A stretch of 32,082 nt of DNA, taken from a bacterium (lineage in GTDB: Bacteria; CLD3; SB21). Position numbers and translations under genes: made by a program. Every line of letters starts with the position of its first letter. The stretch's first letter is position 1. The notes under the pieces were generated by a model. The model was not told the DNA's origin. It searched no databases and saw nothing but the letters and a program-made list of their open reading frames with translations. The stretch is from the NCBI GenBank assembly GCA_008933615.1, contig WBUR01000039.1:1-32082 (forward strand), given 5' to 3'. Positions 24,078-32,082 of this stretch are shown here, piece by piece.

Positions 24078-26180
24078 ATGAATACACGGTCTAAAATTTT
24101 AATCTGTGACCCGTCTCCAAAATCTGAGATGATGCTTTTGACGATCCTGGAATCTAACGATTACGAAGTAGAAAAAGCAATGGATGGGCACGAGGTATTG
24201 GATAAGGCCAAATCGCTGAATTACGATCTGGTGCTGGTGGCCTCCGATATGTCGGGCATAGATGGTTTTCAGGTCTGCCGATTGCTCAAGGAAAGCGAAA
24301 AGACACGGCATATTCCCGCCATGTTGTTGTCGGAACTGCCCGACCAGGCTGCGCGTATTAACGCGATCGAAGCGGGTGCGGATGAGTATATCCCAAAACC
24401 GTTTAACAGAGTTGAACTACTCACGCGTGTCGTGACCTTATTAAGGATCAAACACCTCCATGACCGTCTGGAAAGATTGATCGAAGAAAAAGAAGCCGAA
24501 AAGAAGAAACTTGCTGAGAAAAACCATGAATTAAAGATTTTGTCCGAGATTGCCCGCATCGTCATTTCAATAAAAGACCAACGCAAGGTTTTGACGGAAA
24601 TCTTGAATAATATTCGCGATGCGTTTAAAGTTTACGGTTGTTGTCTCGTGATTCATAAAGACGGGGAATGGATATTGGACACGTGTTCAAGTAATATGAA
24701 TCAGGAACAGTTTATCCAGACGATTTTACCCGCAAGGCCGGTTTACGACTTTGTATCGCACAGTGAAAAATCAATTATTATCAACAGCACCAAAGAAGAT
24801 GATCGTTTTCCGGATGCATGTTCCGTGTTGAATCAGATGAACGTTTTCACCATGCTTTGTTCGCCCGTCTTCATCCGCGGCCGTCTGATCGGCGTTCTGC
24901 AGGTATACAACAAAACAGATAAGTCCGAATTTACGTCCAACGATCTGGCGGTTCTAATGACTTTGTGCGGACAGGTAGCCCTTGCGATTGAAAATTTACA
25001 GCTTTTTAACAAACTTTCGGACTTTAACAAAAATTTACAGGAACAGATAGCGGCGGCTACGCATGCATTGGTTGATCTCAAGAATTTTAACGAAAGCATA
25101 CTTCAGAATATTAGTTCCGGTCTTATTACCACCGACATTTCAGGTAAGATTCTATTTGCAAATCACGCCTGTACAACTATACTTGAATATTCCGAATCCG
25201 ATCTGCTGGATCGCCACATGAATGATATTTTTGGCAATGAATCCGCCGCTGCCATGATGAAGCCCGTTATCGATCAGGATAATATGCCGGTGAGCGCAGA
25301 GTCGCGCGTTATGACAAAGAATAAACGCGATATCTATTTAGGATTTACTACCACAGTCCGGTATGACGCCGATCACCGCATGCTGGGTTATATCGTCAGT
25401 CTTCGGGATATTACTCAGATCCGGGAGATGCGTCAGACGATCATGCGGATGGACCGCCTGGCGTCGTCTGGAGTTTTGACGAGCGCGATTGCGCATGAGA
25501 TCAGGAATCCGCTTGCAGGAATTAAGACCATGGCGCAAGCTCTAGAAAAAGAAATGAAAGCGGATGATCATCGTATGGAGTACGTCCAGCGCATCATAAA
25601 GCAAATTAACCGGCTTAATGAACTTTTGAAGGCTTTCTTTACTTATGCGCGCCCCGTTCGTCCTGAGAAAAAACAATGCGATTTTAGATTGATCGTCAAG
25701 GAAATTAAAGAATTAATAAAGGGCCGGTGTGAAACCGAAAAGATCAGTATCGTGGAACTGTACGATCCGTTTCTTCCAAACGTATTTATAGATGAAAATC
25801 AAATACAGCAGGTTATGATCAATTTGATGGTCAATGCCTTGGATGCTATGGGGAAAGGCGGTAAACTTACCATAGAAGCATTACTGACGCGGCGCAGTTT
25901 ACCTCCGAAATTTCATGACGAGCGAGACGTGATCGAAATTCGCGTATCCGATACCGGAAAAGGCGTTCCGCGCGAACAATTAAAATCGATATTTGACGCT
26001 TTTTATACGACCAAACCCAACGGGATTGGCTTAGGCTTGTCCATCGTCTACCGGATTGTGGAAGAGCACGGTGGCGAGATTCTGGTTGAAAGCGTTGAAA
26101 AAAAGGGAACGACTTTCACGGTACTACTGCCGTTGCATGAAACGGTGGAATCCGTATCCGTAGTCGATTCAGTCATGTAA
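24078..26180 (+). CDS. Histidine kinase with degenerate receiver, GAF and PAS domains
   Basis: 700 residues, soluble. Residues 5-122 fold as a receiver, but the phospho-acceptor position is A55 (LVLVASDMSGIDG, where an active domain has LLD) and the second acidic residue of the pair is P12. S85 and K107 are kept. A coiled coil follows at about 128-152, a GAF domain at about 155-310 (SPVFIRGRLIGVLQVYNK), a PAS domain at about 335-460 (ISSGLITTDISGKILFANHA) and HisKA with H473 in IAHEIRNPLAGIKTM. The ATPase has VMINLMVNALDAMG, VSDTGKGVP (from about 623) and GIGLGLSIVYRIVEEHGG. The kinase core looks fully active, while the receiver seems to serve as a binding domain. The response-regulator gene follows after 23 bases. 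An AAAGGAAA ribosome site precedes the ATG. Confidence 0.92.
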   Translation: MNTRSKILICDPSPKSEMMLLTILESNDYEVEKAMDGHEVLDKAKSLNYDLVLVASDMSGIDGFQVCRLLKESEKTRHIPAMLLSELPDQAARINAIEAGADEYIPKPFNRVELLTRVVTLLRIKHLHDRLERLIEEKEAEKKKLAEKNHELKILSEIARIVISIKDQRKVLTEILNNIRDAFKVYGCCLVIHKDGEWILDTCSSNMNQEQFIQTILPARPVYDFVSHSEKSIIINSTKEDDRFPDACSVLNQMNVFTMLCSPVFIRGRLIGVLQVYNKTDKSEFTSNDLAVLMTLCGQVALAIENLQLFNKLSDFNKNLQEQIAAATHALVDLKNFNESILQNISSGLITTDISGKILFANHACTTILEYSESDLLDRHMNDIFGNESAAAMMKPVIDQDNMPVSAESRVMTKNKRDIYLGFTTTVRYDADHRMLGYIVSLRDITQIREMRQTIMRMDRLASSGVLTSAIAHEIRNPLAGIKTMAQALEKEMKADDHRMEYVQRIIKQINRLNELLKAFFTYARPVRPEKKQCDFRLIVKEIKELIKGRCETEKISIVELYDPFLPNVFIDENQIQQVMINLMVNALDAMGKGGKLTIEALLTRRSLPPKFHDERDVIEIRVSDTGKGVPREQLKSIFDAFYTTKPNGIGLGLSIVYRIVEEHGGEILVESVEKKGTTFTVLLPLHETVESVSVVDSVM

Positions 26181-26203
26181 TAAAAAAATTATTAAGGATG
26201 TAT

Positions 26204-27295
26204 ATGCGGAAAAAAGTTTTAGTAGTTGATGACGAAGAAGATCTCACATGGAGCATCTCAAAACACCTTATCAAAGATAAAGATGTGTATGAAGTTATTT
26301 GTGTGAATAACGGGCAGGAAGCATTAAATCTTCTTTCTCAGGTACCGGTGGATCTTGTTGTTAGCGATATTAAAATGCCGGGCATTTCCGGATTGGATCT
26401 GCTGGTCAAGATCAAGGAGACGTATCAATCGACCAAAGTTATTATCATGACGGCTTTCGGTTCTGCGGATGTTCAAAAGGAAGCAACCTCAAGAGGCTCG
26501 CTGTATTACATAGAAAAGCCGTTTGAGATTGAGGATCTTCGGAGTTTAATTCACAGCGCCCTGATCGAGAAAAAAGGATTCGATGGAAAGGTCACTGATT
26601 TTCAACTTTCGGACCTTATACAAATGAATGTATTGGGCCGCATGGTTATGGCTTTAGTTGTAACTAAAGACGATGAAAAGGGATTGATCTATTTTAATGA
26701 AGGTAATGTGGTTCATGCCGAGTGCGGCAATATACTGGGTGACGATGCATTTCATAAAATCGTTTCATGGGAAACCGGTAAATTTGAATTTCGAAAGGAC
26801 GAACGGCCTGAAAAAGAAACGATAACGCAAGGCTGGCAGAGCCTGCTCCTCGAGGCCATGCGCCGTAAAGATGAAGTGACACCGGAAACGAAATCAAAAA
26901 TAAAAGAAATCACTCGTCAGGAACAGTTAGATAAGATCAAGGCATCGTTGAACGATTTTATTAAAGTCAAAGGAGTAGACCTGGTTGCGATAGTGGATAA
27001 CGCCGGATTTGCGCGCGCTTCATTTTTTAACGAAAAAAAAGAACCGGTACTTGATATTACGACGTTGGTCAATTTTATACCTGCCGGAGTCGAATATATT
27101 CAGAAAGTGAATAATGAGATTAAAGGAGATGGACTGAAATTATTTACATTTGAATTTAACGAGCGAACCTTAGTCTTGGCGCAAATTCCGAATCGCCTGG
27201 AATGGCTCTTGATGGTGTGTGAAAACGAGGTGAATTTAGGCGGATTGCGTTTTGCGATAAAAAAGCAGATCCCGACGCTCAGTGAGGTACTATAA
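26204..27295 (+). CDS. Response regulator: receiver + PATAN (DUF4388) + Roadblock/LC7-like domain
   Basis: 363 residues from ATG 26204, six bases after AAGG; the upstream ATG at 26198 touches the AAGG and is less likely. The receiver (1-118) is complete: D9/D10, D55 in VVSDIKMPGISG, T83 and K105. Residues about 123-215 match the DUF4388/PATAN pattern (FDGKVTDFQLSDLIQM, GLIYFNEGNVVHAECG, GKFEFRKDE). Residues about 240-360 look like a Roadblock/LC7 domain (GVDLVAIVDNAGFARASF, LEWLLMVCE). No DNA-binding domain is present. PATAN and Roadblock modules are linked to Ras-like GTPases of the MglA/MglB kind, so the output is probably protein-protein contact in polarity, motility or surface control. 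The kinase encoded directly upstream is the likely partner. Confidence 0.85.
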   Translation: MRKKVLVVDDEEDLTWSISKHLIKDKDVYEVICVNNGQEALNLLSQVPVDLVVSDIKMPGISGLDLLVKIKETYQSTKVIIMTAFGSADVQKEATSRGSLYYIEKPFEIEDLRSLIHSALIEKKGFDGKVTDFQLSDLIQMNVLGRMVMALVVTKDDEKGLIYFNEGNVVHAECGNILGDDAFHKIVSWETGKFEFRKDERPEKETITQGWQSLLLEAMRRKDEVTPETKSKIKEITRQEQLDKIKASLNDFIKVKGVDLVAIVDNAGFARASFFNEKKEPVLDITTLVNFIPAGVEYIQKVNNEIKGDGLKLFTFEFNERTLVLAQIPNRLEWLLMVCENEVNLGGLRFAIKKQIPTLSEVL

Positions 27296-28165
27296 ATGAC
27301 AGTGAATCATAATTCTGATCCTACAATTTCGTATGCGGATCTTCACATACATTCTTATTTCTCCGACGGGTTCTTGAGCCCCACACAAGTTGTGGAATAT
27401 GCGTCAAAATCGGGATTGCGGGCGATATCGCTCACAGATCACGATACGGTGGAAGGGCTGGATGAAGCAATTGCCGCCGGCGCGGTGTTCAACGTCGAAG
27501 TCATTACCGGCATTGAATTAAGCGCAACAATTGACGATAGAGATATTCATATTCTGGGGTACTTATTCGACCACCATGACGAAAATTTCAGAAAACAAGT
27601 CGATCTGTATAGGAGGGAACGTGTGAATCGGGCTGAAAAGATTGTTCGGAAACTTAACAAATTCGGCGTTCATGTTGATATGGACCAGGTCATGGCGCGT
27701 GCGGGTAAAGGAGCTGTTGGCCGCCCCCATATTGCTGATGCGGTTGTTCTGGCCGGCTTTGCAAAAGATACCCATTCCGTTTTTCGGGATTTTCTGGGAT
27801 ACGGCGGTTCGGCTTATGAAGATAAATATAAAATCAGTCCCGAAGTTGCGATTCGTCTTATCCGCGAAGCGGGGGGTGTGTCTTTTCTTGCGCATCCTTC
27901 TTTTGGAATGAAACAGAAATACTTGCAACAGTTGATCAGCTCAGGCGTCAGCGGGATCGAGTGTACTCATCCCAAACACACCCCGGAAGCGTCGCTTTAT
28001 TTTCAGAATATAGTTCAACGGCATCACTTGCTGCAATCCGGCGGATCGGACTGCCACGCTCGCGACGGAAATATTTTTATCGGAAAATTTCCAGTTCATT
28101 ACAGCATGATCGAAAAAATGAAATTACAAGCGGCATACAACTCAAATACCTCATCCGCAACGTAA
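27296..28165 (+). CDS. PHP-domain phosphoesterase (RNase AM/TrpH-like)
   Basis: 289 residues; the ATG follows the previous stop codon with no gap. PHP motifs occur in order: ADLHIHSYFSDG (H17, H19), ISLTDHDTVEG, TGIELSATIDDRDIHILGY, GRPHIADAVV, VSFLAHPS and GSDCHARDG. The insertion between the third and fifth motifs is the layout of E. coli YciV (RNase AM/TrpH), which hydrolyses 5' nucleotides from short RNAs and 3',5'-bisphosphate nucleosides. Length agrees with YciV (about 290). All metal ligands are kept, unlike the PHP protein in the glycan operon. It is cytoplasmic and co-transcribed with the response regulator. Confidence 0.87.
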   Translation: MTVNHNSDPTISYADLHIHSYFSDGFLSPTQVVEYASKSGLRAISLTDHDTVEGLDEAIAAGAVFNVEVITGIELSATIDDRDIHILGYLFDHHDENFRKQVDLYRRERVNRAEKIVRKLNKFGVHVDMDQVMARAGKGAVGRPHIADAVVLAGFAKDTHSVFRDFLGYGGSAYEDKYKISPEVAIRLIREAGGVSFLAHPSFGMKQKYLQQLISSGVSGIECTHPKHTPEASLYFQNIVQRHHLLQSGGSDCHARDGNIFIGKFPVHYSMIEKMKLQAAYNSNTSSAT

Positions 28166-28199
28166 CCGCGCGGTTCAATCAAACAAAGCAAACACTTCA

Positions 28200-29312
28200 A
28201 TGATAAATAGTACATCGACTGTAATTCCGAAACGAGCTCCGCTCAACGACCTTTCGCCCGAAGAAGCGCTTTATATAAGTAAGATGTCCATTAGCGATCT
28301 GGAAGCGATTCGTCTCGTCTTGCAGGGAAACTCCGTCATAGATTGGTTTCGTCTGGACTTTAAGACCGATGATGAAATAGAGCTTTTTTTAAAAGTTAAC
28401 GGTTATGATATTCACAATATTCAGGATCAAAAACGCCTCGACAAAATCCGTTTAGAGTCTCTGGCATATCTCGAGGACAGATACCCTCACCGCATTCCGC
28501 CTGAACTCAAAGATCCGGGCATGACCATCCAGCGATTATTGTATTTAGCTTCGCGTTCATTTAAACGCTCTACTCTTCAGATGTATGCCTGCATGTTGCT
28601 TAAGATCATGCACACGGTTAATCATATTGACGGAAGAGAACTGCTTCATCGTTGTGAACTGAGAGGTACTGATATTTTTACTGCAGTGGAAAGAAAAGTC
28701 GAAAATGCCGTCCGCACAATGCAAGATGAAGGTTTTCATATTGTGGATTTTTATGGAAGTCACAAGGATAAATTCAGCATGATATCCAAACTATTGGCAA
28801 AAAAGGAAAACCATGCGGCGGCGATATACGATAAGATTCGGTTCAGGATTATTACTTCAACGGTTGCAGATATATTACCCATGTTATATTTTTTGGGCCG
28901 GACGATCTGCCCATTTAATTATATTATACCCGGGGGTTCACATAATAACCTGGTTTCGTTTGCAGATTTGCTGGAGCATTTTCCTTCATTCCGGCATTAT
29001 GCCGCCTATATGAAAAGGAAAAATAATATTACACGGCAACTGAGTTTCTTTAGAGAAAACGAACATACCAGCTCCGAGTTCCGTGTTATCAATTTCGTCA
29101 GCGATATTCCGATTCGCGTCGATGAGATGCTCTATACTCCTGATTTTATAGACCTGGGTCGCATAATCTATGTAACGGTGGAATTCCAGATCATGGATCA
29201 GATGAATTATCAGGACAACGAAATGGGCGAAGCCAGCCACATGAAATATAAGCAGAGACAAACCGATGCAGTGAATGATCGTCTCGGCATGCGCCACACT
29301 GAGTCGCGATAA
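28200..29312 (+). CDS. RelA/SpoT-fold nucleotidyltransferase-like protein (TIGR04552-like)
   Basis: 370 residues. I recognise the general look of the uncharacterised TIGR04552 family (opening SISDLEAIRLVLQGNSVIDWFRLDF). The middle and C-terminus carry landmarks of the RelA/SpoT synthetase fold: GSHKDKFSMISKLLAKKE (K189, K191), AIYDKIRFRIITSTVAD (D211) and VTVEFQIMD (E328), then NEMGEASHMKYK (E341, G343, H347). The spacing from E328 to H347 is 19 residues, as I recall between the EFQIRT Glu and the AAHW His of RelA proteins. The stretch from D211 to E328 (117 residues) is about twice the usual and lacks a clear GYQSIH motif. It may therefore make a different nucleotide or be inactive. No ribosome site is obvious. 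Its gene begins 34 bases after the PHP gene. Confidence 0.7.
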   Translation: MINSTSTVIPKRAPLNDLSPEEALYISKMSISDLEAIRLVLQGNSVIDWFRLDFKTDDEIELFLKVNGYDIHNIQDQKRLDKIRLESLAYLEDRYPHRIPPELKDPGMTIQRLLYLASRSFKRSTLQMYACMLLKIMHTVNHIDGRELLHRCELRGTDIFTAVERKVENAVRTMQDEGFHIVDFYGSHKDKFSMISKLLAKKENHAAAIYDKIRFRIITSTVADILPMLYFLGRTICPFNYIIPGGSHNNLVSFADLLEHFPSFRHYAAYMKRKNNITRQLSFFRENEHTSSEFRVINFVSDIPIRVDEMLYTPDFIDLGRIIYVTVEFQIMDQMNYQDNEMGEASHMKYKQRQTDAVNDRLGMRHTESR

Positions 29313-29337
29313 TATCACGAGATACGAAAGTCTTTTC

Positions 29338-30048
29338 ATGAAAATATCGATCGTTGTGCCTGTTCTCAATGAAGCAAATGTGATTGGGTCATGTTTAGCC
29401 AAGTTACTTGAATTGGAAGATGATTTTGAAATAATTGTAGCAGACGGAGGGAGCCGCGATGAGACGGTGCACATTGCGAAGCAGATGGCGGCCGGCAGCG
29501 GAAATCGTTTGCAGGTTTGTGAGCATATCAAGCCGGGACGTGCTTTTCAAATGAACGCCGGCGCGGACGCAGCCACAGGCGACGTGTTGCTGTTTTTACA
29601 TGCTGACTGCACACTACACAAGGGATCACTTAAAGCTATTTCTGAGAATTTAAAGGACGAAGCAATCATTGGCGGGGGGTTTTACAAAAAGTATTCGGTG
29701 GAAAATTTTTTTTTGCGTAGCTACCGAATTGCGATGAATGTTATTCGAACAAAATGGATGAAAAGCCTGGTGGGTACGAACGCAATTTTCGTCCGGAAGC
29801 AGACGTTCATTCAGTTAGGAAAATTCCGGGAAGTATCGTTACTTGAAGACGTCATGCTTTCTGATCGTATGAAAAAAGCAGGGCGGCTGCTTTTCCTGAA
29901 GCCTCACGTTGTTTCATCGTCACGAAGATATTACGAGGCGGGTATACTAAGGCGCATATGGATTGCTTACAAGATCATGTATTTGTATCGCATAAAACAT
30001 AAATCGCCGGATGAGTTAAAATCCATATACACGCAAATAACGCGATAA
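29338..30048 (+). CDS. GT2 glycosyltransferase, TIGR04283 type
   Basis: 236 residues from ATG 29338 (MKISIVVPVLNEANVIG). The frame is open from 29275, but that extra part lies inside the previous gene. GT-A motifs are EIIVADGGSRDET, KPGRAFQMNAGADAATGDVLLFLHADC (HADC is the DXD site) and LLEDVMLSDRMKKAGR. There is no transmembrane tail apart from a weak one. This matches the TIGR04283 transferase-2 family of about 225 residues, often encoded next to other small transferases in many phyla; its acceptor is not established. It is part of a four-gene plus-strand run with the HAD and methyltransferase genes. Confidence 0.87.
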   Translation: MKISIVVPVLNEANVIGSCLAKLLELEDDFEIIVADGGSRDETVHIAKQMAAGSGNRLQVCEHIKPGRAFQMNAGADAATGDVLLFLHADCTLHKGSLKAISENLKDEAIIGGGFYKKYSVENFFLRSYRIAMNVIRTKWMKSLVGTNAIFVRKQTFIQLGKFREVSLLEDVMLSDRMKKAGRLLFLKPHVVSSSRRYYEAGILRRIWIAYKIMYLYRIKHKSPDELKSIYTQITR

Positions 30049-30079
30049 TAATTATGAGAAAATCATATTGGATCAACGG

Positions 30080-30751
30080 ATGGATCTAAATAACATTAAC
30101 ACGGTATTATTTGATTTTGACGGCGTACTTATGCAGAGTATCGAAGATCATCATCTTTCGTGGAACGAGGTTTTTCGGACGTATGACAGAGAGATCGGAT
30201 GGGAAGAATTTTCTGTTTTAGAAGGTCAAAGCCTGTTTGCGATTGCTGAACAGTTATGCCGTCTTCATGGAATTGCCGTATCAGAATCGGAGAAAATCGG
30301 GCGTGCGAAGAATGAAATTTATTTGCAGAAGGCAAAATTTAAATTGTATGATGGCGCTATGCCGTTGCTGGATTTCCTGAAAAAGAAGAATCTCAGGCAG
30401 GGTTTGGTGACCGGAGCGCATCGAGATCGGTTTGAGAAATCTGTTGACGACCATTTTCTTTCATATTTTGACGCTATCGTTACCGCCGACGACGTGGCGC
30501 ACACGAAACCCAATCCGGAACCCTTCCTGAAAGCGGCGTCATTCATGAGCGCAGAGATCGATGAGTGTATGGTGGTGGAGAATGCGCCCCTCGGAATCAC
30601 AGCGGCCAAACGTGCGGGTATGTTATGCATTGCATTAACTTCGACATTGCCGGAACAATTCCTGACAGAAGCCGATCTGATCATAAATAATCTGAATGAA
30701 CTTAGTAAGCTTTTTGAAAGCGTAAGTATTGAAAACAACTCAGGCAAATAA
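30080..30751 (+). CDS. HAD-superfamily hydrolase (beta-phosphoglucomutase-like)
   Basis: 223 residues from ATG 30080, with GGA about eight bases upstream; the frame also allows TTG 30068. Motif I is VLFDFDGVL (nucleophile and acid D's) and motif II VTGAHRDR. Motif III has HTKPNPEPFLKA and motif IV VVENAPLGITAAKRAG. The second acid of motif IV is Asn instead of the common Asp, and the Glu is kept. The cap after motif I is the small helical C1 type of subfamily IA. Members dephosphorylate sugar phosphates or isomerise them. No substrate can be assigned. It overlaps the methyltransferase frame by 23 bases. Confidence 0.85.
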   Translation: MDLNNINTVLFDFDGVLMQSIEDHHLSWNEVFRTYDREIGWEEFSVLEGQSLFAIAEQLCRLHGIAVSESEKIGRAKNEIYLQKAKFKLYDGAMPLLDFLKKKNLRQGLVTGAHRDRFEKSVDDHFLSYFDAIVTADDVAHTKPNPEPFLKAASFMSAEIDECMVVENAPLGITAAKRAGMLCIALTSTLPEQFLTEADLIINNLNELSKLFESVSIENNSGK

Positions 30752-31481
30752 CGTTCCTCCATATTCCAAATTAGCCGCTTTTTATGACGGCATGATGGAG
30801 CATGTGGATTACTATCATTGGGCGGAGTACATCGATCAGATATTCAGAAAATCAGGAAAATCTGTAAAGGATGTCTGTGAACTTGCTTGCGGCACCGGAA
30901 CGTTTGGAGTGAGTTTATCAAAATTGGGATATACTATGACTTGTTCTGATATTTCGCCTGATATGATAAGAGTAGCGTCTGCTAAGGCAGAACGAAATGA
31001 CGTTCAGATCTCTTTTTCTGTTCAAAGTATGTTAAAATTTAATTCCAAAAAAAAATTTGATGCGGTATTGTGTTTGTATGACAGCATCAATTACCTAAAA
31101 GAAAAAAATGAGATTATTGCGTTCTTACATAATGCTGAAAAACTAGTTACCGTCGGAGGGTTGCTTATTTTTGATGCATGCACAGAACATAATTCTCTTG
31201 AGCATTTTAATCAACGCTATGAATACGACAAGGCGCATCGGTATAGGCGCAGAAGCTATTATTTGGCCGAACAACGCAGGCAGGTCAATGAAATCACCAT
31301 ACAAATTGACGGGACTTTTTATAAAGAGGAACATTCGCAGAATATTTTTGCTATTTCTGATATTGCTGAGCTGATCAGTAAAACTGCATTTAAATTAACG
31401 CACACGTTCGAAAATCTGACTTTTAACAAAGGAAAAGAGAGTTCGGAACGCGTGCATTTTGTTCTGGAGAAAAGGAAATAA
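30729..31481 (+). CDS. Class I SAM-dependent methyltransferase
   Basis: 250 residues from TTG 30729. The next Met codons (from 30792) would remove YSKLAAFYDGMM, the usual lead-in of this family, so the TTG is preferred although no strong ribosome site is seen. Motif I is VCELACGTGTFGVSLSKLG, followed by CSDISPDMIRVASAK and AVLCLYDSINYL. The C-terminal part carries beta strands (RQVNEITIQIDGTFYKEEHSQ) as in small-molecule methyltransferases of the Methyltransf_25 kind. It overlaps the HAD gene end by 23 bases, so translation is probably coupled. Target unknown. Confidence 0.85.
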   Translation: MKTTQANNVPPYSKLAAFYDGMMEHVDYYHWAEYIDQIFRKSGKSVKDVCELACGTGTFGVSLSKLGYTMTCSDISPDMIRVASAKAERNDVQISFSVQSMLKFNSKKKFDAVLCLYDSINYLKEKNEIIAFLHNAEKLVTVGGLLIFDACTEHNSLEHFNQRYEYDKAHRYRRRSYYLAEQRRQVNEITIQIDGTFYKEEHSQNIFAISDIAELISKTAFKLTHTFENLTFNKGKESSERVHFVLEKRK

Positions 31482-31500
31482 CTTATTCTTATTTAATATA

Positions 31501-32082
31501 TGACAGCATACGAAATAATACTCAAGAAGCGTGATAAACAGGAATTGACCAAAAATGAAATCAAAATGTTGGTCGATGATTTTACAGCCGGAAAAATTCC
31601 TGACTATCAGATGTCGGCGTTTCTCATGGCCGTCTATTTTAACGAGATGAACTTTAGAGAAACGACCGACCTCACGATCGCAATGCGGGACAGCGGAACG
31701 GTGATAGATCTTTCGATGATACCTGGCATAAAGGTTGATAAACACAGCACGGGAGGGGTAGGGGATAAGATTTCTCTTATTTTGGCACCCTTGGCTGCAT
31801 CGCTTGGCGTGATCGTACCGATGATCAGCGGGCGTGGGCTCGGACATACGGGTGGAACTCTCGACAAGCTGGAGTCCATTCCCGGATTCAATATTGGTTT
31901 ATCAATTTCACAATTTCAACAAACGTTAAAAGATATCGGTGTCTGTATGATAGGGAAGACCGCCGAGATAGCGCCTGCAGACAAAAAATTGTATGCATTG
32001 AGAGATGTCACCGGAACGGTCGAATCCATACCATTAATTTCTGCCAGCATTATGAGCAAAAAATTGGCGGAAGGAATTGACG
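31501..32082 (+). CDS. Pyrimidine-nucleoside (thymidine) phosphorylase, partial
   Basis: The first 194 residues are visible and the gene runs off the right edge; family members are about 430-440 residues. The helical N-terminal domain opens YEIILKKRDKQELTKNEIK. The phosphate-binding signature is VDKHSTGGVGDKISLIL, and the family signature SGRGLGHTGGTLDKLESIPGF follows. The last visible part ALRDVTGTVESIPLISASIMSKKLAEG also fits. The enzyme splits thymidine or uridine with phosphate to the base and (deoxy)ribose-1-phosphate in nucleoside salvage. The ATG at 31501 follows the methyltransferase after 19 bases. deoA and pdp cannot be told apart from this fragment. Confidence 0.93.

Follow-up and report, generated by a model that had tools for sequence, protein, structure and literature searches.

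Locus and gene

The window, by which we mean the whole stretch of 32,082 nucleotides that was analysed, contains an apparent operon (24078-32081) encoding a sensor kinase, a response regulator-DUF4388 protein, a PHP phosphoesterase, an arsenosugar-type GT2, a HAD phosphatase, a methyltransferase and a pyrimidine-nucleoside phosphorylase; for the GT2 gene, ATG 29339 is a more probable start than 29275. The gene of interest lies between those of the PHP phosphoesterase and the GT2. The features discussed below are:

27296..28165, + strand: PHP phosphoesterase, same-direction neighbour, closest to the 3',5'-nucleoside bisphosphate phosphatase model (180.8 bits against a cut-off of 400)
28200..29312, + strand: TIGR04552-family gene, whole protein of 370 aa (open reading frame and NCBIfam profile matches)
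28248..28739, + strand: all-helical, family-specific N-terminal domain, residues 17-180 (AlphaFold models)
28590..28625, + strand: C131-x3-K135-x2-H138-x3-H142, conserved stripe on helix 125-151 (conservation)
28740..29297, + strand: RelA/SpoT-type synthetase (SYNTH) domain, residues 181-366 (Pfam, hmmsearch of the PDB, hhalign, Foldseek)
28758..28805, + strand: predicted donor-phosphate motif SHKDKFSMISKLLAKK (K189, S193, K197, K201), with S187 in place of the Arg of R-x-K (alignment; roles from PMC5794853)
28824..28850, + strand: IYDKIRFRI, with the predicted catalytic/metal residue D211 and the predicted second adenine-stacking Arg R216 (D+5), aligned to SaRelP D107/R112
28932..29078, + strand: enlarged acceptor (G-) loop, residues 245-293, with conserved N249, N287 and S/T290 (spacing from the Asp to the G-loop Tyr; alignment)
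29079..29111, + strand: degenerate G-loop core and strand F294-R-V-I-N298-F-V-S-D-I-P304, aligned to NGYRSLHLIIEMP of RelP/YwaC and to NGYQSIH of Rel
29178..29198, + strand: VEFQIMD, with the predicted catalytic/metal residue E328, Q330, and D333 instead of the Thr of EIQIRT (conservation)
29220..29252, + strand: E341-x-G-x-A-x-H347-x-x-Y350-K351, predicted ribose-contact His motif, aligned to EEGIAAHWLYK of Rel

Membership of the window protein in TIGR04552 is firmly supported, with a score of 292.9 bits (cut-off 125) over positions 3-350 of the 352 in the profile. It also scores 286.5 bits (cut-off 140) with TIGR04562; the two are overlapping NCBIfam models, neither with an assigned function. 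The NCBIfam RelA model gives a weak match at residues 326-357 (E 0.003). The window genome holds one copy of the TIGR04552 gene; a long Rel of normal type, about 785 aa in length, is encoded at another place in it. In our literature search TIGR04552 was named in one paper only, which reports an indel in a Bdellovibrio member during experimental evolution (PMC9888234), and TIGR04562 in none; none of the titles returned ties Myxococcus to such an enzyme, and a keyword search of the main text of Atkinson 2011 (PMC3153485) found neither Myxococcus nor Bdellovibrio.

Homology to the RelA/SpoT synthetase domain

Alarmone synthetases carry the motif (S/R)xxKxxxSIxxKM, a catalytic Asp in DxxAxR, a catalytic Glu in ExQIRT and the motif ExGxAAHWxYK, with 19 residues from Glu to His. 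An earlier note on this DNA had recognised such landmarks in the window protein, giving the open reading frame, its strand and the positions of K189, D211, E328, G343, H347, Y350 and K351 correctly, and its reading is upheld by profile searches, hhalign, Foldseek and residue conservation alike: the predicted fold proved to be related, and D211 and E328 persist in homologues. The C-terminal half of the protein is homologous to the SYNTH domain, and its membership in this fold is near certain.

The family profile was built on 84 aligned sequences, the window protein together with relatives collected from whole genomes. Pfam RelA_SpoT matches the window protein itself with an E-value of 1.4e-5 over residues 189-232, at 25.7 bits just missing the PF04607 gathering score of 27, and it matches 61 of the 84 members at E<0.01 (best 1.4e-8); a single stray match was the sole competing Pfam domain among them. 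Searched against the PDB with phmmer, the single window sequence gave no match and the family profile was needed: with hmmsearch this found YwaC/RelP (5.9e-5) and RelSeq (2.7e-4) as the sole matches below 0.01, synthetases held its first eight ranks, and the RelSeq match had a further segment, which spans E-x-Q-I ... G-x-x-x-H-x-x-Y-K. Aligned by hhalign to the Rel synthetase domains of related genomes, the family reached a probability of 96 and an E-value of 4.4e-9 over residues 170-355, against 0.4 and 0.14 for the control with the Rel alignment reversed. The family profile likewise matched 19 Rel ORFs, whereas 300 reversed ORFs gave it no match; in the opposite direction, the TIGR04552 model weakly matched long frames of 719-780 aa that bear the Rel G-loop. 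An AlphaFold model of the window protein (pLDDT 86, pTM 0.86) was compared with the PDB by Foldseek, and all 50 matches listed were alarmone synthetases (SAS1, SAS2 or Rel; E 2.7e-5 to 1e-2). The TM-score of the whole model to these targets is about 0.5 (target-normalised), with a large global rmsd that is expected because the domain has insertions.

Donor and metal site

For the active-site assignment we used the ligand roles of SaRelP residues (PMC5794853) and the residue roles of FaRel2 (PMC11782079), and conservation was counted over 51 members of less than 80% identity. Of ten ligand positions in RelP, eight coincide with columns that are near-invariant in the family (hypergeometric estimate, P 5e-7). 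The residues predicted to bind the donor phosphates, K189, S193 and K197, are kept in 50, 48 and 51 members, and the predicted Mg2+ ligands D211 and E328 in 50 and 51. R216, predicted to stack on the adenine, is found in 47/51, Q330 in 50/51 and D333 in 49/51. The predicted ribose contact H347 is kept in 49/51, as is G343, with Y350 in 50/51 and K/R351 in every member. The spacing of 19 residues from E328 to H347, to which the earlier note had drawn attention, equals that in the window genome's own Rel sequence. Two of its landmarks need qualification: K191, named together with K189, is unconserved, and E341 of the His motif is just moderately conserved (37/51). At the position of SaRelP R78, which is the first Arg to stack on the adenine, none of the 51 members has Arg and most have Ser, Gly or Asn; this adenine-clamp Arg of R-x-K is present in 43 of the 44 long Rel compared.

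Acceptor loop

The G-loop of the family is degenerate and reads Y/F294-R-x-[IL]-N298. From the K-x-N-G-Y-x-S-x-H pattern it keeps the Tyr/Phe alone, in 51/51 members, as the predicted stacking residue for the acceptor base; Lys and Asn are absent, and the His position is taken by N298 in 36/51 and by His in 3/51. The GYQSIH motif had been called not clear: its canonical form is indeed absent, and the degenerate loop that profile alignments place at F294-R-V-I-N298 had been missed. The distance from catalytic Asp to Glu is doubled, as had been claimed, amounting to 117 residues against 60 in the genome's own Rel. Since the catalytic Asp is 83 residues from the G-loop Tyr position, against 44 in that Rel, most of this doubling comes from extra residues inserted into the acceptor loop; the loop is about 40 residues longer than in the 44 long Rel compared and has near-invariant residues of its own (N249, N287, S/T290). 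A second insertion of about 19 residues lies between the G-loop strand and E328. Residues 276-285 of the AlphaFold model are of low confidence. At loci L091 and L109 and in genomes G093-G095, G110 and G111 there are natural variants in which this insertion is far shorter; G110 and G111 carry additional TIGR04552 copies (paralogues).

N-terminal domain

The N-terminal domain was considered as an HD hydrolase or another known fold, and neither profile nor fold comparison found a PDB relative (its separate AlphaFold model has a pTM of only 0.64). The helix 125-151 carries C131 (49/51), K/R135 (51/51), H138 (45/51) and H142 (47/51), and the i, i+4, i+7, i+11 spacing puts these four on one face. 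The stripe is possibly a metal or effector site, though to see it as binding an effector or an acceptor is guesswork.

Distribution and gene neighbourhood

Among nine genomes from the phylum to which the window belongs, 7 carry the TIGR04552 gene, all seven in one family of genomes; the gene was also found in 20/20 genomes of the phylum of G507, in 133/156 of the phylum of G036, which we infer, in part from its gltI-gltJ-like genes, to be Myxococcota, and above cut-off in 23 of 386 genomes of a broad sample. It is almost always single-copy, and PF04607 is present in 56/57 genomes of the G036 phylum, mostly as one long frame. Such a distribution is more in keeping with a core gene than with a toxin. 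Scanning contigs with the single window protein returned near-identical MAG copies and nothing else, and tblastn against plasmids gave no match. The family tree has two deep subfamilies. The larger holds the window clade (support 100/100); in the smaller, D-x-x-R-[FY]-R gives way to D-x-x-G-[VI]-R, the form that small alarmone synthetases have. A degenerate relative (L099:8903-9949, genome G196) with the equivalents of K189E, D211E and H347Q sits on a long branch and is likely a pseudo-enzyme in that lineage.

The gene order HK, RR-DUF4388, PHP, TIGR04552, GT2, HAD, methyltransferase, pyrimidine phosphorylase recurs within the window's family of genomes and was unseen elsewhere. The earlier note found the PHP and two-component setting suggestive; the adjacency is real, and its conservation is confined to that family, which makes the PHP neighbour a weak candidate for a dedicated hydrolase. 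In the G036 phylum the TIGR04552 gene commonly lies directly 3' of, or 1.5-1.9 kb after, the gene of a zinc-ribbon/GYF protein, itself preceded in many loci by the gene of a giant TPR protein. A zinc-ribbon/GYF_2 (GltJ-like) gene adjoins it at eight loci (L081, L089, L091, L101, L102, L103, L131, L086) and lies 1.5-1.9 kb away at four (L095, L110, L130, L098). In order and sizes the GYF/TPR pair matches gltI-gltJ, the last genes of the G1 cluster for gliding in Myxococcus xanthus (PMC3169522); we call the proteins GltJ-like and GltI-like on the strength of domains and order. This conserved link to a cluster for gliding and envelope machinery is not universal, since no GYF_2 protein was found in the window genome.

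Proposed function

On balance we favour the view that the window protein is an active 3'-pyrophosphokinase of the RelA/SpoT synthetase superfamily with a changed acceptor, activity and product both being predictions from residue conservation and modelling. The lysines and serine of the SYNTH domain (K189, S193, K197) would hold the donor triphosphate and, as in its relatives, Asp211 and Glu328 would hold Mg2+; His347 would contact the ribose and Tyr/Phe294 stack in the acceptor loop. A nucleoside triphosphate would then donate pyrophosphate to an acceptor 3'-hydroxyl, and the donor is probably ATP. The acceptor is probably other than plain GDP or GTP, because the loop is some 40 residues larger and the Lys, Asn and His of the GDP/GTP pocket are lost. 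Against an active enzyme stand the PF04607 score, below the curated cut-off, and the loss of the first adenine-stacking Arg together with the G-loop residues, which may weaken nucleotide transfer or abolish it. Because the gene is single-copy and core, coexists with a normal Rel and had no antitoxin found with it, a house-keeping or signalling role is more likely than that of a toxin. More tentatively, TIGR04552 proteins might make a pyrophosphorylated (magic-spot-like) nucleotide other than (p)ppGpp, or modify another 3'-OH acceptor, in a core signalling pathway that Myxococcota-like and related phyla would run alongside the ordinary stringent response and that in many of them is tied genetically to the Glt gliding/envelope machinery.

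Among the alternatives, a divergent (p)ppGpp synthetase that uses ATP and GDP/GTP as a backup to Rel under particular stress would agree with the retention of every metal and most donor-site residues and of the G-loop Tyr/Phe, and with RelP/RelQ as nearest solved relatives among the Foldseek matches listed; we nevertheless think it rather unlikely, given that the R-x-K Arg is lost in 51/51, the G-loop Lys and Asn and in most members the His are gone, and the acceptor loop carries its insertion of some 40 residues. A regulatory pseudo-enzyme, binding a nucleotide such as ppGpp or ATP and signalling through the helical N-terminal domain, is improbable. The altered adenine and acceptor pockets, the C/K/H/H stripe as a conceivable effector site and the relative at L099 without K189, D211 and H347 all speak for it, but both metal carboxylates and the donor lysines are strictly kept in very divergent lineages, which is unusual for a protein that only binds. 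Of the two readings in the earlier note, that of a divergent enzyme for a nucleotide second messenger thus gains support from conservation and the structural model, and that of a pseudo-enzyme is disfavoured for the window protein because the metal and donor residues persist across deep lineages. Very improbable is a role as a toxin of the toxSAS kind or as an effector in phage defence, acting by pyrophosphorylation of tRNA or by synthesis of (pp)pApp: the fold is shared with such toxins, and the extra N-terminal helices resemble the N terminus with which FaRel2 anchors tRNA (PMC11782079), but the gene is core and single-copy (20/20 and 133/156 genomes), its own clade is monophyletic in the tree, no conserved small antitoxin partner was found among neighbours that differ between groups, and neither a PADLOC defence model nor a convincing PHROG match was obtained.

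With the window protein read as a pyrophosphokinase of altered acceptor, a gene that was so far merely a family number acquires a concrete enzyme hypothesis with named catalytic residues. If its product is not (p)ppGpp, a nucleotide signal or 3'-end modification would be added to these bacteria, social and predatory groups included, and the gltI-gltJ linkage is a place to seek a phenotype. With its changed adenine clamp and remodelled acceptor loop, the family also offers natural variation from which to learn what determines donor and acceptor choice within the SYNTH fold.

Comparison with known systems

Membership among the canonical (p)ppGpp synthetases (Rel, RelP, RelQ) is not supported by the sequence, because both the donor motif R-x-K-x3-S-x3-K with its Arg and the G-loop motif were looked for and neither was found complete. 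SaRelP has the SYNTH fold in common with the window protein, and its K80/S84/K88, D107, R112, Y151, E174 and H190 correspond to K189/S193/K197, D211, R216, F294, E328 and H347; its R78 is replaced by Ser, Gly or Asn in the TIGR04552 family, and the window protein differs further in the G-loop Lys, Asn and His (mostly absent), in a loop about 40 residues longer and in an added N-terminal helical domain of 165 residues. The toxSAS enzymes (FaRel2, CapRel, Tas1) share both the fold and N-terminal helices ahead of the domain; the window protein is unlike them as a core gene product with no antitoxin found, and R64, the adenine-clamp Arg of FaRel2, has no counterpart in the family. With the long Rel/RelA/SpoT proteins, represented by that of its own genome (G000:C28, L075), the window protein shares D-x4-R, E-x-Q-I and ExGxAxHxxYK (hhalign E 4e-9); it lacks their HD hydrolase, TGS and ACT domains, RelA_SpoT being the sole Pfam match in its 370 aa, and has a D-to-E spacing of 117 where its own Rel has 60. 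The NCBIfam families TIGR04552 and TIGR04562 are matched at full length, far over both cut-offs and with no difference.
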